Positions 10,427-62,125 of a stretch of DNA of 64,000 nt are shown piece by piece (within the stretch, counting starts at the first letter, position 1; each line of letters opens with the position of its first letter). Location: positions 62,001 through 126,000 of the forward strand of contig NZ_JACJON010000073.1 of NCBI RefSeq assembly GCF_014695585.1, read 5' to 3'. Position numbers and translations under genes: made by a program. The notes under the pieces were generated by a model. That model was not told where the DNA came from, searched no databases, and saw only the letters and a program-made list of their open reading frames with translations. The stretch is from Microcoleus sp. FACHB-831. Its GTDB lineage: Bacteria; Cyanobacteriota; Cyanobacteriia; Cyanobacteriales; FACHB-T130.

Positions 10427-10957
10427 TTAGAAGCTATAGCCTACGCCACCGTTGATGCTGACAGCAGATGCAGGGCTATTTTCATAAGCTTTGATTCCCA
10501 GCTTTACGTCGCTGAAAACAACAACGTTCTTGGCAACTTCAGCTTCAACACCAGCCGCTACAACAGGGGCGTTTTTATTACCAATAGGAGTTGGAGCGCC
10601 GTCTTTTTCCACCAAGGAGTAGCCAGCAGCAACGTAGCCGTTAGCGTTGTTGGTGATGGGAACATCGTAGGAAATCATTGGCATGATAGCGCTAGTTTCA
10701 CCGCTGAAAATTACAGCACCTCTAGCAGAAAGAGGGGTATTTTGAATTTTGTAGCGGCCAACAATAGTACCGCCGAATGTAGCTGCATCTCCGTTTTGTC
10801 CACCATTAGTAACACCCGCGGCAGCACCAGCACCGACGTAGTTTGCATCAGTTCCTGTTGGTTTAGCAGAAGCGGCGCCATGAGACAGTAAAACAGGAGC
10901 GATCGCCAATGTAGATAAAAGGGAAATCTTTGCAGCAGACTTGAGAGAGCGTTTCAT
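10427..10957 (-). CDS. Secreted outer-membrane-type beta-rich protein
   Basis: Translation from the ATG at 10957 gives 176 residues. A ribosome site AAGGAAC lies just upstream, whereas the longer frame to 11020 lacks one. A classical Sec signal peptide (MKRSLKSAAKISLLSTLAIA, cleavage after ASA near residue 31) precedes a Gly/Ala-rich region of alternating beta strands. The chain ends in an aromatic residue (GGVGYSF), typical of outer-membrane barrels. No specific porin family is recognised; the small size suggests an 8-strand barrel-like protein. Monocistronic, with a long AT-rich upstream region. Confidence 0.7.
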   Translation of the reverse strand: MKRSLKSAAKISLLSTLAIAPVLLSHGAASAKPTGTDANYVGAGAAAGVTNGGQNGDAATFGGTIVGRYKIQNTPLSARGAVIFSGETSAIMPMISYDVPITNNANGYVAAGYSLVEKDGAPTPIGNKNAPVVAAGVEAEVAKNVVVFSDVKLGIKAYENSPASAVSINGGVGYSF

Positions 10958-15636: not shown

Positions 15637-18600
15637 CTATAGTTGATCTTGATATCGCTGACGTTCTTGTTGCAATACTGCCTGGACGCGCTCGTATTCG
15701 GCATTAACAGAAGTCGCGATCGCTAGGGCGTTTTCTGTTGTTCCCCCACGACCAATTGCTTCAAGCTGCTTGGACAATTCTGCCAAAGCGGTAGCGCCCA
15801 AAGTCGCGCTGCTTGACTTCAGCGTGTGAGCAGCATATCTCAATGCGATCGCGTCGTTATTTGTCACAGACCGTCGAATTGCTTCCACCAGATTTGGTGC
15901 ATCTTCCAGGTAGCTATCAATTACCTCCACCAAAATTAAAGGTGCCTCTTCACCAGCCATTTCGCAAATACTTTGTAATGCTTCGGGGTCAAATGTCGGT
16001 AGCTGCGCCTCGTCGATCGCCTCATACGCGGGAGATTCAGACTTCGGTGCGATCGCCTTTCTCGGAAGCGGACAACACGAACTCAGCGCCTCAACCAACG
16101 TCTCGACCTGGATTGGCTTGCTCACGTAGTTGTCCATACCCGCATTCAAGCACTCCTCGCGATCGCCCTGCATGGCATTTGCAGTCATGGCAATAATCCA
16201 GGGGCGCACCTCATAACTCCATTCCTGGCAAATCTGCCGCGTGGCGGTTAAACCGTCCATTTCTGGCATCTGCACGTCCATCAGCACCACATCGTAGGGC
16301 TGACGACGCAGCGCTTCTAAGACTTCCAGACCATTTCCAGCAATATCGGCGCGATATCCCAACCGTCGTAACAGGTGGATCGCTACCTTCTGATTAACAA
16401 CATTGTCCTCTGCTAACAAAATTCGCAAGGGCAGCCGAGAGGCTAACTCTGGGTCAATAGCGGATTGTTGGGAGCGGGGAGGCTTTGCCTGCATGGGCTG
16501 TTTACTCAATATACCGCTCAAGACATTGTATAGCTGAGACTGTTTGATCGGCTTGTTTAGAAAGGCTGCAAAATTTGCTTTTGCTGTCTCTTCATCTCCC
16601 TGGGGGTTAACAATCGAAGTCAACATCACTAGGGGCAAGCGCGGGGTAAGCATTCCGCCTGTTTCTTCTAGCTGGCGAATTTCTTGCGATAAAGTTAGAC
16701 CATCCATCTGCGGCATTTGCATATCCAAAATCGCGATATCAAATGTTTCACCCTGACTAAGCCACGAAAGTGCCTCAGCACCAGAAGTCGCCGCACGCAC
16801 GAGCATCCCCCAAGAGTGCGCCTGTAGGGTCAATATTTGCCTATTCGTGGCGTTATCATCAACAACCAGCAGCCGCTTCATATCCAGCGTAATCGGCGGA
16901 GTGGGGGACTCAACCAGCGATGAACTGGGAACGCACTCTTGCACGATGGTGAAATAAAAGGTCGATCCTACGCCAAGTTCGCTTTCGACCCACATTCTCC
17001 CACCCATCATTTCGCTCAAACGTTTGCTGATCGCTAAACCCAGCCCCGTGCCACCATAATGGCGTGTGGTAGAAGAATCCACCTGGCTAAAGGCTTTAAA
17101 TAGCCGATCCATCCGTTCGGCGGGAATGCCGATCCCCGTATCTCGGACGGCAAATTTGAACTCATACCTTTGTTCATCGTTAATTTGTGGTTCCCCATTC
17201 CCCATTAACCGTTGGGCGGTGACAGAAACCACAACTTCGCCAGTTTCAGTAAATTTAACCGCATTACTGAGCAAATTAACTAAAATTTGCCGCAGTCGGG
17301 TAACATCTCCCAAAATCGTCTTCGGGGTTTGTTTATCTATCAGATAGGCCAATTCCAGGTCTTTTTCACCAGCCCGGTGAGCCAACAGATCCAGACATTC
17401 CTCAACACAGGCTCGCAGATCGAAAGGATGCTTCTCAAGCTCCAGTTTGCCAGAGTCAATTTTGGAAAAGTCAAGGATGTCGTTAATGATGGTTAGCAAA
17501 GCATCGCCACTGCTGCGAATAGTTTCGACAAACTCTCGCTGAAGGGGATTTAGAGTAGTATCGAGCAACAATCCAGTCATACCAATTACCGCATTCATCG
17601 GCGTCCGGATTTCATGGCTCATTGTAGCCAGAAACTCACCCTTAGCGCGGTTGCCTGCTACCGCTTCGCCTTTGGCTTTTTCCAATGCAAAATTTTGCGT
17701 ACTCAATTGCTCGCGTTGCCTAGTTTCTTGCTCCAAGAGTCGGGCTTGAGCAAGGGCAATTCCTACTTGAGCAGCTACGGCTTCGATTAGCTCGATTTCA
17801 TCATCTGTCCAATGTCTGTAGTCGTCGCACTGATGTAACCCAATAGCACCGTTGGGTTCCCCCTGATAAGAGGTGCGAATTGTCAACAGAGATTTTACTT
17901 TGAGTCTTTCATTGAGATTCGGCCCTTGTTGTAGTAGCGACTCGGCGTAAACGTTTGATGAGGCGATCGCCCGATCTTGCTCTATCAGATGGGCAGTATA
18001 AGAGTTGGGATGGACGGGGATTTCTAAATCCCCCAGTGAGTCATACCCAGGCGCTAAATATTCTGCCATCACCAATAGCCGGGGTTGTGGCGTTGCCACA
18101 TATGTGAGAATCAAACATTGATTAACTTGAAATGCCTGACCGATCTGAGTCACAGCGGTCTGGAAAATTTTCTCGGTACTAAGCTGCTGTCGAATTTCTT
18201 GAGTAATTTGTTTGAGCAGCAATGCTTTAGAAAATTCCTGTTGCAGGGCACTCTGGGCTGTGGCACGTTCAATTTCACCCCCAACCCACTGAGCCATCAG
18301 CTTCAACAGTTCTTTGTCCACAGCTTTAAAAGCTTTCTGTCGGAGGTAACGGCTAGAAAAGCCAAGCGTGCCGTACACTTTATTGGCAACAACGACGCTC
18401 GTACCAATATAAGCCTCTAAATTGAAGGTGGCATAGGCTGGGTGGAAACACGATTCTGATGTTGCTGCTGACTCACAGAAAACGAGGTTTGGAGCTTTTA
18501 GCGTTTCGCGGCGATCGGTTGACCCCAGCTCGAAGACATCGCCCCTGGCAATTTGGAAAGGGGAATTTTCGGGGACAACGGCTGCAATGATTTCAAAAAC

Positions 18601-21552
18601 TTCGTCTTTAATTCGCCCCAGCGTACCAACCTCCAGACCGAAGCGGCGGCATCCCATCTCTAGCATCCTCTGGAGGCGCTGGTCAAAGTTGAGGTCTGGG
18701 GTTGCCGTGACTTGATACAACGCCCGAATCCCCGCTTCGCTTTCTCGGAGTTGTTTCTCTACTTGTTTGCGTTCTATGAATTGACCGACTTGGCTGCCGA
18801 TGGCGGTCATCATGTTGAGCAGATCTTGGTCTGGCTGTTGGATTTGCTGAGAAAAAAAGACGAACACGCCTAGTATCTCCCCCCCGCTGAGGATGGGAAA
18901 ACCAAAGGCTGAGTGCAGCCCTTCTTTAGCTGCGATCGCTTGTCTTTGAAAGTTCGGATCGCTTGCTAAATCAACAATCCCGCTTGGTTTGCCGCTTGCC
19001 CAAAGCCGACCGGGCAAGCAAATGCCTTGTGCCAATGTGGTGTGTCGCGCGATCGCCTCAAACTCTGTAAAAGGCGATTCCGAAGAACTGGATGGAAGTA
19101 TCTTCTCGCCAGTGTCAATTACCCTACCGTGCCAGTTTTTTACACAACGCAACACGTTAGCTTGTCGATCCACGCTCCAGAGTTCGCCCACGTCCCAGCC
19201 CAAGTTTTCACCAATGGTTTGCAGGATTTTCGGCGTTGCTTCCGATAGCGTGGCTGACTCTGCCAATATGCGGGTAGTGGCGTGCTGCGTTTCCAGACGC
19301 CGCTCCGAGCGTTTGCGTTGGGTGATATCGCTACCAATCCCCATAAATCCCGCGATCTTGCCCCTGCTGTCGCGCCATGCTGTAATCGACAACAGGACAG
19401 GAAAGCGGCTGCCATCTTTGCGGATGTAAGTCCATTCGCGCTCTTCGATCGTGAAGCGACGCGCTTTGGCAACAAAAACCTCAAACCCAGGCTCAATATC
19501 GATTCCAAGCTCTTCAGATAGTTCTTGTGCCCTCTGCACTACTTCATTTGGCTCGTGAAGGATGGCGGGCGTGGTTTTCCCAACTACCTCAGAGGCAGCA
19601 TAGCCCAACAATCGCTCTGCCGCCGAGTTAAAAGTACGAATTGTACCGTCTACAGTTGTGGAAATAATGGTGTAGTTGGCGCTATCTAAAATTGCCCGCT
19701 GCAAGCTAGTCGTCTCTTGTAGGGCATGTTCGCTAGCTTTGCGATCGCTGATGTCTCTTGATGTAATTGCTATACCGTCTGCAAGCGGTACTACTTGATG
19801 TTGAATCCACGAAGCTGAGATCTCTGGCGTACTGATGGGGAATTCTTCCTCTAATACTTCTCCAGTTTCAACAACCCGAACGTACTTCTCCAAAAAACCA
19901 CCAGTGCGATTTATGGGGAGAAGTTCGCACAGTTTCTTGCCAATGATTTCCTCCTTAGACATGGCAATCATCTTCTCGCCACCACGGTTAACATCTACAA
20001 ACGCAAAGTCTACGATTTTTCCCGACTCGTCTCTGATGCTCTGCAATAAGAAGAAGGCGTCTAGACTTCCTGCGACGGCAGCCCTAAATCGCGCCTCGCT
20101 TTCCTGTAACGCCCGAATGCTAACTTTACGCTCGGTGATGTCCTGAATCTGAAAAATAAAGTACAAAGGTTCTCCGCTGCTATCTCGAACTAGAGACACG
20201 CTCAACAGAACCCATACTATGTGCCCTTTTTTGTGTAAGTATCGCTTCTCGATCTGATAGGAGCGAATTTCACCATTGAGTAGTTGACGTACATAATGAC
20301 TATCGGTATTCAAGTCGTCTGGATGCGCGATCGCTTGCACTGTCGTAGCTAGCAATTCGCCTTCTGAATAACCAACAATCTCGCACAACGAACGATTGAC
20401 TTGCAGCCACCGACCATCGGATGCTACCAGCGCCTTCCCAATAGCAGCGTATTCAAAGGCACTGCGTAATGATTCTTCGCTCTGGCGCAATGCTGCCTCT
20501 GCCTGCTTCCGATCCGTGATGTCGTTGAGCGTGCCCGTCGTGCCGATGATATTGCCTTCAGGGTCGAGTGTAACCCGGGCATAAACCTCAACCCACCGAA
20601 AGCCTCCCCGCGCAGTCAGGTAACGAATTTCGTGTTTGTAGTCTTCTTTTTTTCCTTCGAGCAGAAGCTGAAATAGCTCCAGACTTTTTTGGCAATCGTC
20701 GGGATGAATGTACTTTAAAAAGTTTTTCCCGAGGCTTTCTTCAATTGAAAATGCGGTAATTTCTGCCCAGGCGGGATTGAGAAACGTCCACAATCCTGTT
20801 TCGTCTGTTTGAAATATTACTTCTTTGATACTGTCAACGACTGAGCGATATTTTTTTTCGCTTTCTCGCAATTTATCTTCGGTTTGCTGGCGCTTTTTGA
20901 TGTTGCGTTCTAACTTACCTACGGTAATTCGCAACTCCATCTGGGTGATCACTTGCCGACCCAGAGCTTGCAAAGCTTTAATCTGTTCTGGGTCTAAATT
21001 TCGGGGAATCCTGTCGATCGTGCAGAGAGTACCAATGGGAAAGCCATCGGGCGTCACCAGGGGAACTCCAGCATAAAAGCGGATATTGGGTTCAGACGTA
21101 ACTAGAGGGTTGCCCGCAAACCGCTCATCTTCTAAAGCATTGGGCACAATTAACGGATCGTCAGGGCGCAAAATAGCATGGGCGCAGAAGGCCAGTTCTC
21201 TGGGAGTTTCTGGCGCGTCTATGCCGACTTTTGACTTAAACCACTGTCGGTGAGTATCGATGAGGCTGACTAAGGCGATCGGAGTGCCGCAAATATAAGT
21301 AGCCAGAGTTGTCAGGTCATCGAATGCTTCTTCAGGAGCAGTATCGAGAATTTTATAACGATAAAGTGCCTTTATCCTATCTGCTTCGTTGGCTGGTAAT
21401 GCTGCTGGGATCGCCCCCGATGGAGGTTTGATATTAGGTTTACTTCTTGGCGATCGCAAGTCGTTCGACTGTCGCGCTCGTTGCAAGAAGACACGAAAAA
21501 ATCGCAACCAACTTTTAGTTAGAGAACGTACTATAGAACGAATTATTTTCAT
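15637..21552 (-). CDS. Giant hybrid histidine kinase: GAF-PAS4-GAF3-HisKA-HATPase-REC-REC-HPt
   Basis: A 1971-residue soluble phosphorelay kinase with no clear membrane segment. An N-terminal GAF domain (about 50-205) is followed by four PAS/PAC units (about 225-745) and three further GAF domains (about 755-1285). HisKA then carries the phospho-acceptor in [14 protein letters not shown] near residue 1311, and HATPase follows with DTGIGIP and [13 protein letters not shown]. Two receivers have Asp near 1608 ([11 protein letters not shown]) and 1759 ([12 protein letters not shown]). A C-terminal HPt domain has AAHTLKSSS near 1905. All catalytic residues appear intact. The many sensor domains suggest integration of several cytoplasmic or light/redox inputs, which cannot be specified. 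It heads a block with a REC-GGDEF gene downstream. Confidence 0.92.
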
Positions 21553-32529: not shown

Positions 32530-34188
32530 ATGCTCAATTATATGGACAGTCTTGCATCAACAACAGCATTCCTCTGGTTATTTTCACCGCCATTTATACT
32601 AGGAAGCATCAATAACGCAGACCCATCCAATCCAGGGAAGGTAGAGGGTTTAGTCACCGTTTTGATTATTCTCCTGCTGGTTGCGACTGGTGTTGCTCTC
32701 GTCTCCCGTTACCTTCGGCTTCCGTATGTCACGGGTTTAGTATTAGCGGGGTTGGCAATTACAGAATTGCTGCCGCGTCGCATCGGCTTGGATTCTTCGC
32801 TAATATTCAATCTCTTTCTACCAATTCTGTTATTTGAAGCTGCCATTAATACTGATATCAGCCGCCTCCGCAGCACTATAAAACCAATTGCGCTTTTAGC
32901 AGGGCCAGGGGTGGTAATTTCTTCTGGCATTACGGCAATTATATTGAAATTTGGCCTGGGGTTAACTTGGATACCAGCGTTGTTGGTAGGGGTGATTTTG
33001 GCAATTACCGACACAGTTTCAGTAATTGCTGTTTTCAAGGAAGTGTCAGTCCCCTCTCGGCTGTCCACAATTGTTGAGGGAGAAAGTTTATTTAATGATG
33101 GTATTGCTTTAGTTGTGTTCAGCCTGATTCTACAAGTGCATCAAACTGGCTCGTTAACGTTTTTGGCTGGACTTCAAGAACTCTTTGTAGTGATTGTGGG
33201 AGGCACTCTTGTAGGATTAGCGTTGGGTTACTTAAGCACTGGTTTATTTGTTCGCTCAGACGATCCTCTAAGCAGTATTTTACTGACAGTTGCAGTAGCG
33301 CTAGGAACGTTTCAGATCGGTGAAATTCTGGGAGTGTCTGCTGTTGTAGCGGTAGTAGTAGCCGGGTTGATTATCGGGAATGTTGGGCTTTCCAGAAGTG
33401 TTTCTGCGTCCAGTAACATAACGTTATTAAGTTTTTGGGAATATGCTGGCTTTGGGGTCAATACCTTTATTTTCCTACTTATCGGTTTAGAAATAGATTT
33501 AATAACGCTGTGGAAAACACTGCCAGCAGTTTTGCTGGCGATTGTAGCTTATCAAGTAGGGCGCTTGGTGTCGGTATATCCATTATTGGCACTTGTTCGT
33601 TTTTTTGACCGGGCGATTCCGTTGCGCTGGCAGCATATCCTGTTTCTTGGTAATATCAAAGGCTCGCTGTCAATGGCTCTTGCTTTTAGTTTACCTGCAA
33701 CTATTTTAGGTAGGGAGGCATTGATTGCTTTAGTATTTGGCACGGTACTGCTGTCGTTGGTTGGGCAAGGGCTAAGTTTACCTTGGTTTGTGAAACGGTT
33801 TAATTTGTCTCATTTCTCAGAATTTCAGCAACAAACAGAGGAATTACAAGCCGAGCTAATTACCGCTAAAGCAGCGCAAGATGAATTAGATAGCTTGTTA
33901 AAATCTGGTGTTCTACCGAAATCTATCTATGAGGAAATGCGTTCAACTTATCAATTTAAGGTGGCAGGAGCCGAAAAATTGTTGAGGGATTTGTATAACA
34001 AACGTCCCGAACAACTGAGCAATTCTCTGGGCGATCGCACTAAATTTGATGCTATTCGTCGGCGCTTGCTACTAGCAGAAAAGGGAGCGCTAAACGAGGC
34101 GTTGCGTAAGCGGATTCTTGACGAACAAATCGTGCGCGGCAGGCTACAGACGATTAACCAACAACTGCTCAAACTAGAAGATGATTAA
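32530..34188 (+). CDS. CPA1-type Na+/H+ antiporter
   Basis: A 552-residue membrane protein with about twelve transmembrane segments (residues 35-425) and a cytoplasmic coiled-coil tail (430-552). The ion-binding region ILAITDTVSVIAVFKE and the GESLFNDGIALVVF motif carry the conserved acidic residues of NhaP/NhaS-type exchangers. It should exchange Na+ or K+ for protons across the membrane. An internal Met four codons in is an alternative start. The gene converges on the TrkA-N gene with a 4-base overlap. Confidence 0.9.
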   Translation: MLNYMDSLASTTAFLWLFSPPFILGSINNADPSNPGKVEGLVTVLIILLLVATGVALVSRYLRLPYVTGLVLAGLAITELLPRRIGLDSSLIFNLFLPILLFEAAINTDISRLRSTIKPIALLAGPGVVISSGITAIILKFGLGLTWIPALLVGVILAITDTVSVIAVFKEVSVPSRLSTIVEGESLFNDGIALVVFSLILQVHQTGSLTFLAGLQELFVVIVGGTLVGLALGYLSTGLFVRSDDPLSSILLTVAVALGTFQIGEILGVSAVVAVVVAGLIIGNVGLSRSVSASSNITLLSFWEYAGFGVNTFIFLLIGLEIDLITLWKTLPAVLLAIVAYQVGRLVSVYPLLALVRFFDRAIPLRWQHILFLGNIKGSLSMALAFSLPATILGREALIALVFGTVLLSLVGQGLSLPWFVKRFNLSHFSEFQQQTEELQAELITAKAAQDELDSLLKSGVLPKSIYEEMRSTYQFKVAGAEKLLRDLYNKRPEQLSNSLGDRTKFDAIRRRLLLAEKGALNEALRKRILDEQIVRGRLQTINQQLLKLEDD

Positions 34189-35541: not shown

Positions 35542-38500
35542 ATGACAACACTGCCGCCTCAAGAAAATACAACCCAAAATCGGAATCAGTGCTACTGCCT
35601 CAATCCTGCTTGCGAGCATCCAGAGAACGATCGCAATGCCGAAACGTGCCAAAATTGCGGGTCAAAATTACTCCTGCAAGATAGATATAGAGCGATCGCG
35701 CTTATCGGTCAAGGAGGCTTTGGCAGAACATTTCGCGCTATTGATGAATCTTCCCCATCCCAACCATATTGCGCGATTAAGCAGTTTTTTCCTCAACAAC
35801 AAGGCACTAGCAATACTGAAAAAGCAGCTGAGTTATTTCGCAAAGAAGCGACTCGCCTAGAGTCACTCGGCAAACATCCGCGAATTCCTAAACTGTTGGC
35901 CTATTTTGAACAAGACCAACGCCAATATTTAATACAAGAATTTATTGATGGTCGCAACTTAGCAGAAGAATTAGCTGAAGAAGGGCCATTCGACGAAACC
36001 AAAATTCGACAGTTACTTAATGATTTGTTGCCCATACTGCGGGTTGTCCACAGCCATCAAGTCATCCACAGAGACATTAAGCCAGAAAATATTATTCGCC
36101 GTCGCGCTGATGGCAGTTTGTTTTTAGTCGATTTTGGCGCTGCAAAATATACAACAGAAACTACTCTGGGAAGAACTGGCACGGTAATTGGTTCTGCGGC
36201 TTTCACGGCTCCCGAACAAGTCAGAGGTAAAGCCGTTTTTGCTAGCGATTTATACAGTTTGGGTGTCACCTGCATTCATCTACTAACCCAGATACCTCCG
36301 TTTGACTTATTTGATGGTAGCGAAGATGCCTGGGTTTGGCGACATTATCTACGTCAAACGCCGAACGGTGCGCGTGGGAAGAAGGCTAGGAAAAGTGGAG
36401 CTTCTGTGTCGCTACAGTTAGGCAATATCCTCGATAAAATGTTACAAAGTGCGACAAATAAGCGTTACCACTCAGCAGATGAAGTCCTTCAAGATTTGAA
36501 TTCAACTCCTATCCCAGTTGCTAGTTTTGAAATTAAGAAAAAATGGCTAGTGGCGGGTGCTGTTTTAGTGTTGGGATTCGCAGGAGTTCGGTATTTAGTA
36601 TCTCCTGTAACGCAGATGGTGACGCAACAATCTGATGAGCGATCGCACTCTCAACAAAGTGGTTTGTTTGCAGAAGTAGATGGGAAGCAGCAAGTTTTCC
36701 CGTTGCAGCATACCGAAGTGATGGCGAAAGTCGCTGGTAATGTCTCGCGGGTGGAAGTGACGCAGACTTTTACAAACCCCTTTAAAGAACCCTTAGAAGC
36801 GGTTTATAAATTTCCACTCCCTGAAGATGCGGCGGTGGATGATATGGAAATAAAAGTAGGCGATCGCATCATCCGAGGTCTTATCAAAAAACGCGAAGAA
36901 GCAAAGCAAATTTATCAGCAAGCCAAAGAGCAAGGCAAAACTGCTGGATTACTCGAACAAGAACGCGACAATATATTCACTCAGTCGCTAGCTAATATCA
37001 AACCAGGCGAAAAAATTGATGTCACTATTCGCTATACCAATAGCCTGAAGTTTGAAAAAGGCGATTACGAATTTGTATTTCCGATGGTGGTAGCACCGCG
37101 CTACATCTCAAACAATGGCGACAATAGCAATGTTGCCAACGCATCAACAATTAACCCGCCTGTAGAGTCAGGTGGAAACATTGCCGGACAAGATATTGGC
37201 GTGACGGTAGAAATTGAAGCAGGCGTACAAGTTTCTAACGTGCGCTCTACTTCTCATCAAATCCGCACTACGAAAGACGGACGCATCCTGCGAGTTGAGT
37301 TGGCTAAACAAGATACAATTCCCAACAAAGATCTCATTTTGCGCTATCAAGTTGCAGGTAAAGAAACGCAGTCTACCGTACTTGCTGATGCAGATGAACG
37401 CGGCGGACACTTTGCCACATATTTAATCCCCGCAGTGCAATATCAAACTAATGAGATTGTGCCAAAAGATGTGGTATTCCTTATGGATACCTCTGGTTCG
37501 CAATCAGGCGATCCGCTGGTAAAATCTAAGGAACTGATGCGGCGGTTTATTAATGGCTTGAATCCCCAAGATACATTTACCATTATTGACTTTGCCGATA
37601 GCACAACTCAGCTATCACCAACACCTTTACGAAATACACCAGAAAATCGCGACAAAGCCCTAAGTTATATCGAGCGGCTGCAAGCCGACGGCGGTACAGA
37701 GTTACTTAATGGCATTAATACTGTTGTGAATTTTCCACCAGCTCCCCAAGGGCGTCTGCGTAGCGTTGTGCTAATTACAGATGGATTGGTAGGCGACGAC
37801 GTGCGAGCGATCGCAACAGTCCAAAAGAATCTTAAACCGGGGAATCGGCTTTATAGTTTTGGCGTGGGAAGTTCTGTTAATCGCTTTTTAATTGAGCGTT
37901 TGGCAGAGGAAGGACGAGGAACTGCAAAAGTTGTCCGTCAGGATGAACCCACACAGGAAGTAGCTGAAAAGTTCTTCCAACAAATCAACAGCCCTGTGCT
38001 AACAAATATTGAAGTTAGCTGGCAAGGTTCTGGCGCTTCACCAGCAATTTATCCCCTAAAGCCTGCGGATGTATTTGCAAATCAGCCAGTAGTGTTGTTT
38101 GGGCGCAAGCAAGATCGCAGCAATGGCACTTTGAAGATTTCCGGGATTGCTGCGGGTGGCAAACGTTATGAGAAGACAATTCCAGTCAATTTTGACAGCG
38201 CTGGAAACGCAGCGATCGCTCAACTTTGGGGACGCGCCCGCATTAAAGAATTGATGAAACAAATGTATCAGGGTGAAACTTCATCCGGCGTCAAAGATGT
38301 TACCGATACGGCTTTAGCTTATCGTTTGCTATCTAAATACACCGCATTTGTCGCCGTCACTGAAGAAGTGCGAGTCGATCCCAATAACACCAGGAAAATG
38401 CAAGTACCAGTGGAAAATCCGGATGGTATGAGGGGTGACACTACTTCTCGCAAAAATGCTAATCAGCCCCAACTTTCTCCCGCGAAAACAGCTAAGAAAA

Positions 38501-38760
38501 CGTCATCTTCTACAGGGCTTGCCAAGCCGATAACGAATGTAGCAGCGCTACCTAATTCAATGCCAGCACCCAGCGCAATAGGGCAATCCAACCAGGTTAA
38601 TTCACCTAGTCAAGGGGGGCAATCCACTCAATCTTCAGACCCAAGCCAAGTGCCAGAACCCACCAAAATGTTCGGCAATATTCTAGGGCTTTTGTTGTTA
38701 GGAATTTACTTTGGCTGGAAGCGGCTGATGGGATTGAAAAACTCTACACCCCGCCATTAA
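35542..38760 (+). CDS. Ser/Thr kinase-VIT-VWA chimera with PEP-CTERM-like sorting signal
   Basis: A 1072-residue protein. An N-terminal four-Cys zinc ribbon (CYCLNPAC, CQNCGSKL) precedes a full protein kinase domain (about 48-320) with IGQGGFGRTF, HRDIKPEN near 176 and DFGAAKY near 196. A membrane helix follows (about 332-352). A VIT domain (about 374-500) and a VWA domain (about 640-815) with MIDAS motif DTSGS come next, then a Gln/Ser/Pro-rich linker. The end has VPEP at 1037-1040, a hydrophobic helix and basic WKR, which is the layout of a PEP-CTERM signal. The stop overlaps that of the convergent cyanoexosortase-associated gene. The likely picture is a cytoplasmic kinase with an exported adhesive part processed by exosortase. 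Confidence 0.88.
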   Translation: MTTLPPQENTTQNRNQCYCLNPACEHPENDRNAETCQNCGSKLLLQDRYRAIALIGQGGFGRTFRAIDESSPSQPYCAIKQFFPQQQGTSNTEKAAELFRKEATRLESLGKHPRIPKLLAYFEQDQRQYLIQEFIDGRNLAEELAEEGPFDETKIRQLLNDLLPILRVVHSHQVIHRDIKPENIIRRRADGSLFLVDFGAAKYTTETTLGRTGTVIGSAAFTAPEQVRGKAVFASDLYSLGVTCIHLLTQIPPFDLFDGSEDAWVWRHYLRQTPNGARGKKARKSGASVSLQLGNILDKMLQSATNKRYHSADEVLQDLNSTPIPVASFEIKKKWLVAGAVLVLGFAGVRYLVSPVTQMVTQQSDERSHSQQSGLFAEVDGKQQVFPLQHTEVMAKVAGNVSRVEVTQTFTNPFKEPLEAVYKFPLPEDAAVDDMEIKVGDRIIRGLIKKREEAKQIYQQAKEQGKTAGLLEQERDNIFTQSLANIKPGEKIDVTIRYTNSLKFEKGDYEFVFPMVVAPRYISNNGDNSNVANASTINPPVESGGNIAGQDIGVTVEIEAGVQVSNVRSTSHQIRTTKDGRILRVELAKQDTIPNKDLILRYQVAGKETQSTVLADADERGGHFATYLIPAVQYQTNEIVPKDVVFLMDTSGSQSGDPLVKSKELMRRFINGLNPQDTFTIIDFADSTTQLSPTPLRNTPENRDKALSYIERLQADGGTELLNGINTVVNFPPAPQGRLRSVVLITDGLVGDDVRAIATVQKNLKPGNRLYSFGVGSSVNRFLIERLAEEGRGTAKVVRQDEPTQEVAEKFFQQINSPVLTNIEVSWQGSGASPAIYPLKPADVFANQPVVLFGRKQDRSNGTLKISGIAAGGKRYEKTIPVNFDSAGNAAIAQLWGRARIKELMKQMYQGETSSGVKDVTDTALAYRLLSKYTAFVAVTEEVRVDPNNTRKMQVPVENPDGMRGDTTSRKNANQPQLSPAKTAKKTSSSTGLAKPITNVAALPNSMPAPSAIGQSNQVNSPSQGGQSTQSSDPSQVPEPTKMFGNILGLLLLGIYFGWKRLMGLKNSTPRH

Positions 38761-39464
38761 ATCATAATTACTAGGGTGGGCAATACCCATCCTACTAATT
38801 TGTATTGCCACCATTGATACCAAGGAACCCAGGCTTGTTCTAAAGTTTGATATGCATTTTCTACAGCAGAATAATCTTTTAGGGGTATCGACAAATGCGC
38901 CCATAAACAACGCATATCTCGCAGTTCTGCGCGACCTAGCAACCAGGGAATTAAGCGGCTCAAGCGCACATCGTAAATAATACGATTGTTCCTAAACTGT
39001 TCATCCGTGACTGTACTACCGCCACGCGGGTTAATACAGGCGCTAAGATAGGCTCGTTCGCTATGAACAAAAAGGCTATAGAAGCCTATTCCTTGTTGTT
39101 GGCGTAAGATGGGTACAATTTTATCCGTGTAGTTGGGGATATTTTTATAGGTTTTTATTAAGCCTTTGATATCACCGTTTGTATTAGCAAGATAGCGCAT
39201 TTCAATATCTAGGAACCAATCCTTCTGACTGTAGCGATATTGCCTTCCAGAAATGTATTTAGTAAGCTTTTCTGTAGTTTGATTAATTAGGGGGCTGCTT
39301 GCTAAAGCCTGCCAGCCAGGTAAAGATATTGTTGTGGGAAAAACGAATTCTGAAGGGGCGCGATCGCTTACGCTAGGATATAAAATTGAATTCCCCAAAA
39401 CCGCCAGTACACCGCCAAAAATTGCAGCCACCAGCCAAATCCTGATTTTATCCCAACGTTTCAT
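38757..39464 (-). CDS. Cyanoexosortase A system-associated protein
   Basis: A 235-residue protein with an N-terminal membrane anchor (IWLVAAIFGGVLAVLGNSI), a periplasmic domain with GWQ, YRYSQ and RGGSTVT motifs, and a C-terminal hydrophobic helix. The pattern matches the family always found next to cyanoexosortase A (TIGR04153 type), and gene order agrees. Its biochemical role is unknown; by analogy with EpsI-like partners it may assist the sorting reaction. It lies 91 bases downstream of the exosortase gene, and its stop codon overlaps that of the kinase-VWA gene. Confidence 0.8.
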   Translation of the reverse strand: MKRWDKIRIWLVAAIFGGVLAVLGNSILYPSVSDRAPSEFVFPTTISLPGWQALASSPLINQTTEKLTKYISGRQYRYSQKDWFLDIEMRYLANTNGDIKGLIKTYKNIPNYTDKIVPILRQQQGIGFYSLFVHSERAYLSACINPRGGSTVTDEQFRNNRIIYDVRLSRLIPWLLGRAELRDMRCLWAHLSIPLKDYSAVENAYQTLEQAWVPWYQWWQYKLVGWVLPTLVIMI

Positions 39465-39555
39465 GGTGTTTATACTAATATAATAAGTATCTCTTCATAA
39501 TTAGAAATTTTCTACTTTGATTACCCCTATCTATTTAGGGTATTTGCTGTCATCA

Positions 39556-40392
39556 CTATGCAATATTGCTTCGATTTATATTGGATTTTTGTAAAATAAA
39601 AATATGACAGAATAACCCGAAAACCATGACACTAATCATAGAAAATATTACCGAGCCATCCCCTTTATGCCAGTAGTCAAATGCATTTTGATTAGATAAC
39701 GCTACTAAAATAGCCATAAGAGCAACACGCACACCATTAACTACAAATCCCAGCAGCGCAGCCACAAAAGTAATTAATATCTTTTGCCTTGAGTTAGTGG
39801 GAAACAGCACTAAAAAGATAAATGCAAATCCCACTAATTGAAGCATAAGCCCCGTACCGGAACAGCCAGCGTATACCTCTATCGCTCCTGTTGGTAGACT
39901 GACTAGCAGACCTTGGCGGGATACTTGAAATCCTAAAACCCAAAGCACAAAAGCTGCGAATTTAGCTGTTAATTCAGATATATCAAACTGGAATAACCAG
40001 CCTTGAGCTATGGCTAGAAAACAGAGGATGCTAAGTTCCTGCCAATATTGCTTTAACCCTTTAAAACCCGAAGCTACGAGGCTCAAACCTAATATTGAAA
40101 TGAAAGGTGAGATGCGGACGAAAGAGTCTTGGCTAGATAAGTGTATAGCCTTGAAAAAAATTAAAATAATCAGCGATGCACCAAAAAAAGTAGAAAAAAT
40201 ACCACTTTCTAGATTTAAGCGATCGCGTTTTTTCCAAAGTAAGGACAATACAGCAATCCAAAATAAAACGCTAGCCCCCAACAGGTCATTATCTCCAATT
40301 CTCATCGTCAAATGGAGATGAAGAGCAATTAAGCCTGCTGCTATACCCAAAAGCCATAATTTCAACTCTTTGACAAGTTTTAGGCCGCTCAT
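39556..40392 (-). CDS. Cyanoexosortase A
   Basis: A 278-residue integral membrane protein with about eight helices. The exosortase catalytic set is visible: Cys177 in YAGCSGTG, Arg222 in NGVRVA, and His242 in WHKGDGS. Exosortases are thought to recognise PEP-CTERM tails at the outer face of the inner membrane and cleave or transfer the substrate. The family (cyanosortase A, TIGR03763 type) is restricted to cyanobacteria. It lies 40 bases downstream of aat and upstream of its partner gene, so an operon is possible. Confidence 0.88.
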   Translation of the reverse strand: MSGLKLVKELKLWLLGIAAGLIALHLHLTMRIGDNDLLGASVLFWIAVLSLLWKKRDRLNLESGIFSTFFGASLIILIFFKAIHLSSQDSFVRISPFISILGLSLVASGFKGLKQYWQELSILCFLAIAQGWLFQFDISELTAKFAAFVLWVLGFQVSRQGLLVSLPTGAIEVYAGCSGTGLMLQLVGFAFIFLVLFPTNSRQKILITFVAALLGFVVNGVRVALMAILVALSNQNAFDYWHKGDGSVIFSMISVMVFGLFCHIFILQKSNINRSNIA

Positions 40393-61393: not shown

Positions 61394-62125
61394 ATGCAAA
61401 TTACCCATAAGGCAATTATTAGTCCTTGTAGAAGCGCCTCGACTGCTTTAGAAAACTGTTTCGGACAAGAGCCAGAACTCCGAGTAATTCACCAACCTAT
61501 TAAATCTGGGCTTTTACGGTGGGGAATTGAAGACTACCGTATTTTTTTTAAAAAGCCTTTAGGCGCTAGAGCGATTATTTTTAAAGAAACTATCGGGTCC
61601 CGCAAGCTGCGAACGTCTCGGCTAATTGTATTTCCTTCAAAAGAACTGGTATCAAACACCGATCAAGTTTTTATTTTTAGGGAGCCGCTGGAAACATGGC
61701 GTTCGTGGCTGAAATACAACTATAAAAATTTAGACTTTTTTCTAATTTCCTACAAACATACTTTCCATTTATTAAAAGAAAGTTTGGAAATAGCACCGCA
61801 GCGCGTTACTTGCATCACCCAAGACTTATTTTTGGATTACCCAGAACAAGTTCTGAGGGAACTCTGCTCTAAATGGGAGATTCCCTATCGAGAAAATATG
61901 TTGTGGTGGGAAAGACCTTTTGGTAGCGATACTTGCTTGATTGAGTTTTCAAAATTTACAAAGATTGCTATTCATAAAAGGCGGGTATTTGATAGTTTAA
62001 AAAAAGCTGAAACGGTGATAAGAACACAACCGCAGCAAGATTTACACCCTACTAACGAGCAAGAATTTGAGGTGGTTAGACAATTAGCGCCTATTTATCA
62101 AACAGTTTGTAGTCTTAGTTTTTAA
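61394..62125 (+). CDS. Sulfotransferase-like protein
   Basis: A 243-residue protein. The N-terminal P-loop-like SPCRSASTALE (residues 10-20) fits the 5'-phosphosulfate-binding loop of PAPS-dependent sulfotransferases, and VFIFREPLETWRSWLKYNY near residue 95 fits their 3'-phosphate motif (R-x-P and Ser). The C-terminal part is helical. It would transfer sulfate from PAPS to a hydroxyl or amine of an unknown acceptor. It lies between the two ATP-grasp genes; its stop overlaps the stop side of the minus-strand copy (62122). Confidence 0.65.
   Translation: MQITHKAIISPCRSASTALENCFGQEPELRVIHQPIKSGLLRWGIEDYRIFFKKPLGARAIIFKETIGSRKLRTSRLIVFPSKELVSNTDQVFIFREPLETWRSWLKYNYKNLDFFLISYKHTFHLLKESLEIAPQRVTCITQDLFLDYPEQVLRELCSKWEIPYRENMLWWERPFGSDTCLIEFSKFTKIAIHKRRVFDSLKKAETVIRTQPQQDLHPTNEQEFEVVRQLAPIYQTVCSLSF

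Follow-up and report, generated by a model that had tools for sequence, protein, structure and literature searches.

The cyanoexosortase A (CrtA) gene analysed here and the large kinase-VIT-VWA protein encoded beside it probably constitute a one-enzyme, one-substrate exosortase system. The proposal of the earlier note that the large protein is the dedicated substrate of CrtA is well supported by comparison of sequences: the two genes are linked across cyanobacterial genomes, the paired enzymes fall into related clades, and the tail subtype gives one strong match per genome. What is new is a cyanobacterial CrtA subfamily with a likely substrate bearing a predicted cytoplasmic Ser/Thr kinase. 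Such a protein would be a sorting-enzyme substrate that keeps its N-terminal catalytic domain in the cytoplasm, and it would tie surface protein sorting to kinase signalling. Exosortase biochemistry is hard where many substrates share one enzyme; a pair that is likely one-to-one, and whose tail subtype can be recognised, would provide a clean test system.

Organization of the CrtA locus

Coordinates are positions in the window, which is the whole stretch of 64,000 nt analysed from contig NZ_JACJON010000073.1 of Microcoleus sp. FACHB-831. CrtA, its TIGR04153 partner and a convergent gene for a protein of 1072 residues are all present at 35542-40392, as had been claimed from the sequence.

35542..38760, + strand: proposed substrate of 1072 aa, a kinase-VIT-VWA protein ending in a PEP-CTERM-like tail (ORF, domain models, alignment)
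35593..35670, + strand: 4-Cys prefix domain, residues 18-43 (NF045510, 37.9 bits, cut-off 24)
35689..36492, + strand: Ser/Thr protein kinase domain, residues 50-317 (PF00069, E 1.6e-41)
36547..36603, + strand: hydrophobic segment, residues 336-354, likely N-terminal transmembrane helix (hydropathy)
36703..37035, + strand: VIT domain, residues 388-498 (PF08487, E 2e-39)
37468..37938, + strand: VWA domain, residues 643-799 (PF13768/PF00092)
38650..38757, + strand: PEP-CTERM-like tail, residues 1037-1072, with VPEP, hydrophobic helix and WKR (alignment and tail profiles; below curated cut-offs)
38757..38760, no strand: convergent stop codons with four-base overlap (ORF coordinates)
38757..39464, - strand: cyanoexosortase A system-associated protein, 235 aa (TIGR04153, 219.4 bits, cut-off 100)
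39556..40392, - strand: CrtA, 278 aa (TIGR03763, 299.4 bits, cut-off 150; C177/R222/H242)

CrtA scores 143.9 bits against PF09721 in a domain search, and C177, R222 and H242, already pointed out in the earlier note and which we take to be the catalytic Cys, Arg and His, are invariant across the six paired CrtAs that were aligned. No solved chain matches CrtA by sequence at E <= 1. TIGR04153 was not detected adjoining CrtA at three of the loci compared (L052, L053 and L214). The four-base overlap of the stop codons is real but means little, because two further convergent ORF pairs in the window overlap in the same way (34185-34188 and 62122-62125); as an ordinary arrangement that occurs three times, it was discarded as evidence.

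The kinase domain of the large protein contains Lys80, the HRD Asp178, Asn183 and the DFG Asp197, and inspection of the alignment by eye indicates that these motifs are retained in all seven kinase rows. Because KKK precedes the hydrophobic segment at residues 336-354, the kinase is predicted, by the positive-inside rule, to be cytoplasmic. The VIT and VWA domains exceed their gathering scores, and residues D649, S651, S653 and D747 of the VWA domain, presumably its metal-site residues, are invariant in 11 homologues. The best-scoring solved chains for the VIT-VWA region are ITIH4 and PARP4. A predicted structure was set aside as poor (mean pLDDT 52.8, pTM 0.35).

A distinct subtype of PEP-CTERM-like tail

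The order of PEP, hydrophobic helix and basic residues was confirmed at the extreme C-terminus of the protein, where P-E-P and Gly1045 are invariant in the alignment of the 11 tailed homologues and the linker before them is variable. The public models score this tail below their curated cut-offs, TIGR02595 giving 9.9 and 11.2 bits depending on the stretch supplied (cut-off 16) and PF07589 giving 7.4 bits (cut-off 20.7). Taken alone, these models would speak against a PEP-CTERM tail; their result stands, and the tail was examined further by means of its homologues and home-made tail profiles.

Two such profiles were built without any VIT-VWA tail. The first, made from 65 PEP tails at other exosortase loci (59 distinct, duplicates included, two from L191-L206, selected by a rule that required the letters PEP), ranks the window's tail first among 168 ORFs (17.9 bits, E 1.5e-5, next 0.42), and the stricter one, made from 52 distinct tails each at most 3 kb from a CrtA, gives the same rank (12.0 bits, E 0.001, next 0.12). 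When 1142 C-termini are searched, the 10 tailed VIT-VWA proteins of L051-L110 outrank all others with the first profile (E <= 0.003, next 0.13) and again with the stricter profile (E <= 0.0078, next 0.087). Hence, the VPEP-hydrophobic-WKR ending described in the earlier note is not a chance resemblance, judging from these rankings and the invariant P-E-P, and the profile check that it proposed for the C-terminus gave a divided answer, negative with TIGR02595 and PF07589 and positive with the home-made profiles.

The tail also differs from PEP tails elsewhere. A profile made from the other 18 tailed VIT-VWA tails gives 54.0 bits for the window's tail versus at most 26.3 for the 65 PEP tails elsewhere. 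In each of 11 genomes searched with it, this kind of profile finds a single strong match, although the subtype profile was made from tails that it retrieves and this uniqueness may partly reflect common descent. The host genome (G000) also encodes 15 PEP-CTERM tails of the generic kind (E <= 0.01), so CrtA may have more targets.

Linkage of CrtA to tailed VIT-VWA proteins

The sample of 70 cyanobacterial VIT-VWA loci comprises 11 tailed loci, 57 tailless loci and two cut by contig ends (L330 and L331), which are outside the tailless count. In a BLASTP search of the flanks with the window's CrtA as the query, CrtA was found adjacent at 10 of the 11 tailed loci, versus none within the fetched flanks of the 57 tailless loci, some of which are clipped by contig ends. 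The survey for the pair suggested in the earlier note thus recovered it in other genomes. Of 80 named CrtA loci, nine carry the pair, and every VIT-VWA protein found beside CrtA there is tailed. The flanks of all VIT-VWA matches were inspected, and no VIT-VWA gene was found at the fetched loci of other CrtAs (80 loci over the cut-off, away from VIT-VWA genes).

The earlier note had named two findings that together would speak against its proposal, namely the lack of a PEP-CTERM profile score and the frequent occurrence of homologous kinase-VWA genes in genomes without cyanoexosortase. The former was formally obtained with the public models; the latter was not seen, since all seven kinase-VIT-VWA fusions among the 70 loci carry the tail and all seven tailed genomes of the class draw possess CrtA.

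The linkage survives two changes of orientation, the genes being convergent in relatives of the window and co-directional elsewhere (L054 is without an assigned orientation, and L230, L245 and L251 are without an assigned kinase state); at L060-L062 the reading frames overlap. Four members without the kinase retain both the tail and the linkage to CrtA. The genome G001, an assembly of 330 contigs that is about 95% complete, is an exception: it encodes a tailed protein, but a CrtA of the paired clade was not found in this assembly, and the CrtA that it does have is accompanied by its own PEP neighbour. A loss in G005 removed the enzyme and the helper along with most of the gene for the substrate; as a single event, it is given no weight in the case for coupling.

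Phylogeny of the enzyme and its likely substrate

In a quick tree of VIT-VWA proteins, the tailed rows, three of which are short (328-383 aa), lie on one side of a single branch (19 versus 51 rows, SH-aLRT 100). In a quick tree of 172 CrtAs, calculated with a simpler model, with long-branch warnings and with one CrtA of at least 230 aa per named locus, all 18 paired CrtAs fall inside one clade of 19 rows (SH-aLRT 99). The partner of the 19th row (L224) could not be seen, because the contig stops about 190 bases past CrtA. A better model applied to 93 CrtAs, after removal of the duplicate loci L192, L193, L194, L196 and L198, splits the paired CrtAs into two clades, and a single clade is not rejected (p-AU 0.327). 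L208 was dropped because, judging by the length of its contig and its position, it lies on the same contig as L051. The enzyme and its likely target appear to have evolved together.

Alternative explanations

It is rather unlikely that the tail, as a true PEP-CTERM signal, is processed by any exosortase of the cell, including the second CrtA and the two CrtBs, with adjacency reflecting shared inheritance and not exclusivity. The two CrtA and two CrtB genes and the 15 generic tails of the host genome would fit such processing, as would G001, which keeps the tailed protein and in which only other exosortases were found, but the gap between 54.0 bits and at most 26.3 bits that sets the tail subtype apart, the related clades and the retained linkage argue against it.

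That the C-terminal segment is a mere second membrane anchor, with an unrelated exosortase nearby by coincidence, is very improbable: the low scores of the public models would agree with it, but PEP is invariant in 11 homologues, profiles built without VIT-VWA tails still find the tail, and CrtA, which is absent from the flanks fetched for the 57 tailless loci, adjoins 10 of the 11 tailed ones. Equally little credence is given to the VIT-VWA protein being a regulator, with the tail serving as a docking element and the kinase controlling either CrtA or the machinery for surface polysaccharides. The presence of a complete kinase is in its favor; the four kinase-less members, however, keep the tail and the linkage, and the kinase is therefore dispensable for the association with CrtA.

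Proposed model of receptor processing

If the large protein is the dedicated substrate of CrtA, it would be a two-pass receptor with a cytoplasmic kinase, one predicted transmembrane helix and the VIT-VWA region outside the inner membrane, the other end being held in the membrane by the C-terminal PEP-helix-basic signal. A distinct cyanoexosortase A subfamily, usually with the TIGR04153 helper, would recognise this tail subtype, and the Cys-Arg-His site of CrtA would cut adjacent to PEP. The VIT-VWA end may then be released or transferred to some acceptor, and the receptor would be retained by its N-terminal helix and perhaps also by the new attachment. The VIT-VWA domain could report to the kinase, which suggests a role for tail trimming in the sensing of the environment by the cell. 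A fuller version is possible but doubtful: CrtA would mature a transmembrane receptor kinase by cutting its C-terminal anchor and joining the VIT-VWA ectodomain to a glycan or a lipid at the surface, and the condition of the extracellular matrix would thereby be coupled mechanically or chemically to the cytoplasmic Ser/Thr kinase.

Comparison with known systems

The second CrtA locus of the host genome (C69, L122) encodes an enzyme of the same family (304.5 bits) with a TIGR04153-like gene; its neighbour is a protein of 240 aa with a generic tail that, unlike the window's tail, exceeds the TIGR02595 cut-off (21.6 bits). VIT-domain proteins also accompany XrtN (TIGR04477, by model name) and XrtO (TIGR02921), and these proteins show only weak similarity to the VIT domain of the window (E 0.062 and E 0.00097, respectively); XrtO directly adjoins TIGR02921 in G001. 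In one open-access collection, no paper was found combining exosortase with VIT domain, PEP-CTERM and exosortase with threonine kinase, or CrtA and exosortase with cyanobacteria, and none of the titles and abstract openings examined describes the CrtA/kinase-VIT-VWA pair.

TIGR03788 (marine_srt_targ), presumably the model for VIT-VWA targets of the TIGR03784 sortase, matches residues 391-966 of the window protein with 457.6 bits, under its cut-off of 551.65, and the tail of the window protein is PEP, not LPXTG. This Gram-negative sortase system therefore has a homologous VIT-VWA substrate, but it combines an LPXTG tail with an unrelated sortase, whereas the window combines a PEP tail with an exosortase and an N-terminal kinase. 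PpkA of Pseudomonas aeruginosa joins an N-terminal Ser/Thr kinase and a C-terminal VWA domain in a single protein; unlike for the window protein, no VIT domain, sorting tail or exosortase is mentioned in the available passages (PMC1262709).

Dedicated VIT-VWA sorting pairs are already known elsewhere, and in the TIGR03784 system a single VIT-VWA target adjoins its own sorting enzyme (PMC3237569). The same paper also covers Verrucomicrobium spinosum, in which a member of the VIT-VWA family ends in a PEP-CTERM tail and its cognate enzyme is an exosortase; this case comes from another phylum, and the passage on it mentions neither a kinase nor a dedicated exosortase nearby (PMC3237569). Homologous VIT-VWA proteins bear tails for unrelated enzymes, namely sortase, rhombosortase and exosortase (PMC3237569), which suggests that the domain repeatedly needs C-terminal processing.

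Organization of the locus and of the 1072-aa protein

In the 6.42-Mb cyanobacterial genome (G000) to which the window (C73:62001-126000) belongs, the gene for the 1072-aa protein and a two-gene set, comprising cyanoexosortase A (CrtA) and its partner protein TIGR04153, are arranged tail to tail on opposite strands:

35542-38760, + strand, kinase-VIT-VWA gene with a PEP-like tail (1072 aa)
38757-39464, - strand, TIGR04153 gene
39556-40392, - strand, cyanoexosortase A gene

The catalytic residues of CrtA, which the earlier note had assigned to Cys177, Arg222, and His242, were found at these positions and are unchanged across six paired CrtAs (those adjoining the gene of a tailed VIT-VWA protein). 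An overlap of exactly four bases between the stops also occurs at two other convergent ORF pairs of the window (34185-34188 and 62122-62125).

In the 1072-aa protein, a 4-Cys prefix is followed by a Ser/Thr kinase domain in which the Lys, HRD, and DFG motifs are present. Three lysines precede the hydrophobic segment at 336-354; VIT and VWA come next, the latter with D649/S651/S653 and D747 conserved, and a linker that varies leads to the VPEP-helix-WKR end. We infer cleavage and transfer of this protein, as well as its topology and signalling. Elsewhere in the window, 15637-21552 encodes a hybrid histidine kinase of 1971 aa, in which PAS and GAF domains recur and which also has two receiver stretches and an Hpt.

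Nature of the C-terminal tail

The earlier note had looked to public profiles for recognition of the tail as a PEP-CTERM signal, which was not borne out at the cut-offs of the models (TIGR02595, 9.9 to 11.2 bits vs. 16; PF07589, 7.4 bits vs. 20.7). At a lax E <= 10, TIGR02595 matches 10 of 11 homologous tails (best E 0.0054) and TIGR04155 matches 9 of 11 (best E 0.029). A profile of 65 PEP-type C-termini (59 distinct), taken from fetched loci of other exosortases with VIT-VWA tails excluded, puts the window tail at the head of the 168 window ORFs (17.9 bits, E 1.5e-5; next ORF, 0.42); against 1142 ORF C-termini of the fetched loci L051-L110, its top matches are exactly the 10 tailed VIT-VWAs (E <= 0.003; next 0.13). 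With a stricter profile, limited to 52 distinct tails found no farther than 3 kb from a CrtA, the window tail is still first, but with only 12.0 bits and E 0.001 (next 0.12), and the same ten tailed VIT-VWAs come out on top (E <= 0.0078; next 0.087). Across an alignment of the 11 homologues with the tail, P-E-P and Gly1045 never vary, and the upstream linker differs in sequence and length. The most fitting interpretation of the window tail is a divergent PEP-CTERM-type tail, though it is no formal member of TIGR02595.

When a subtype profile of the 11 tails was searched in 11 genomes, each (11/11) gave one strong match, which was the VIT-VWA gene every time (E 1.2e-12 or better); because the profile contains those tails, such matches are expected and only the missing second match is informative, the second-best being E 7.4e-5 or weaker (0.0225 in the window's genome). 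In the window's genome, TIGR02595 also detects 15 tails of the generic type (E <= 0.01), and there are a second CrtA that adjoins a generic PEP-CTERM protein and two CrtBs.

Association of tailed VIT-VWA genes with CrtA

Strong VIT-VWA matches (E <= 1e-100) were found in 60 of the 242 genomes of the class draw, at 64 places, and CrtA (E <= 1e-20) in 93. These 64 places and six strong matches in the family relatives G001-G004 were all read, giving 70 VIT-VWA loci, 11 of which carry a PEP tail, either with the kinase (the window, G001-G004, G120, and G216) or without it (G062, G200, G227, and G234). The co-occurrence anticipated in the earlier note was found: CrtA adjoins 10 of the 11 tailed loci and is absent from the fetched flank of all 57 tailless loci (two further loci are cut off). 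CrtA is present in 7/7 tailed genomes of the class draw vs. 27/53 genomes with tailless VIT-VWA only, and a VIT-VWA gene was found in none of the 80 fetched loci of other CrtAs. Because the sequences are related, none of these counts are independent trials.

Tailless VIT-VWAs have a different C-terminal stretch, which in the one scanned, a paralogue in the window's own genome, is the after-VIT domain NF033769. This paralogue (L010:874-3315, G000:C67) is ~70% identical, lacks kinase and tail, has NF033769 at its end, and, as judged by eye, has no signal peptide.

A scan of named genomes with the paired-CrtA alignment revealed, among the best 80 of 120 loci, nine with a VIT-VWA beside CrtA, and the tail is present in all nine: Oscillatoria sp. 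Prado101, Trichocoleus sp. FACHB-40 (judged from length and position to be the contig of G004), Oscillatoria princeps RMCB-10, Oscillatoria sp. PCC 10802, Microseira wollei NIES-4236, and MAGs of Pseudanabaenales, Leptolyngbyaceae (frame split), Xenococcaceae, and Prochloraceae (gene several kb off).

Phylogeny, rearrangement, and exceptions

In a tree built by a quick method on the VIT-VWA part alone, with tail and kinase left out, one branch separates 19/19 tailed from 51/51 tailless proteins (SH-aLRT 100). The 10 paired enzymes of a 93-row CrtA tree fall into two clades, one of six enzymes whose partners have the kinase (support 95/82) and one of four whose partners lack it (100/99), and a single clade is not rejected (p-AU 0.327). 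In a quick 172-row tree under a simpler model, 18/18 paired CrtAs fall into one 19-row clade (SH-aLRT 99), the remaining row of which is L224, a locus whose contig ends ~190 bases beyond CrtA.

The genes are convergent in the window's relatives and co-directional elsewhere; in L060-L062, the CrtA reading frame (longest start) overlaps the end of the VIT-VWA gene. The VIT-VWA tree implies two changes of kinase state and two of gene orientation; the pair was kept through the latter, and the linkage therefore outlived rearrangement.

In G001, the tailed kinase protein is present, and CrtA lies on a different contig, outside the paired clade, with its own PEP neighbour of the XDD3 family. Beside the CrtA of G002, G003, and L214, no gene resembling TIGR04153 was detected. 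In G005, of the same genus as G004, no strong VIT-VWA match was found, and the corresponding place (L340:6232-6942, G005:C13) lacks a stretch that in G004 comprises CrtA, TIGR04153, and the greater part of the kinase-VIT-VWA gene. The G005 sequence matches that of G004 up to L051:6232 and once more at 10644-10726, within the end of the kinase, where a short kinase remnant is left; beyond this remnant, G005 is unmatched to the contig end.

Relation to known systems

In a study attributed to Haft and colleagues, vault-like VIT-VWA proteins of bacteria are reported to bear GlyGly-CTERM, LPXTG, or PEP-CTERM tails, and LPXTG-tailed VIT-VWA adjoins a dedicated sortase (PMC3237569). The XrtN system, judged from its model name, likewise includes a VIT-domain protein. 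The window pair widens this sorting theme to a cyanobacterial CrtA subfamily. As far as literature searches show, what is new is that a sorted VIT-VWA protein has a kinase at its N-terminus; PpkA is a kinase-VWA fusion for which neither VIT nor a sorting tail is mentioned in the available part of the source (PMC1262709).

A second cyanobacterial exosortase pair comparable to that of the window is found in G001, where Exosortase O (XrtO; TIGR04489, 543.2 bits) directly adjoins the gene of a 945-aa TIGR02921 PEP-CTERM protein (L289:6555-11070, G001:C94), which is weakly similar to VIT-domain models.
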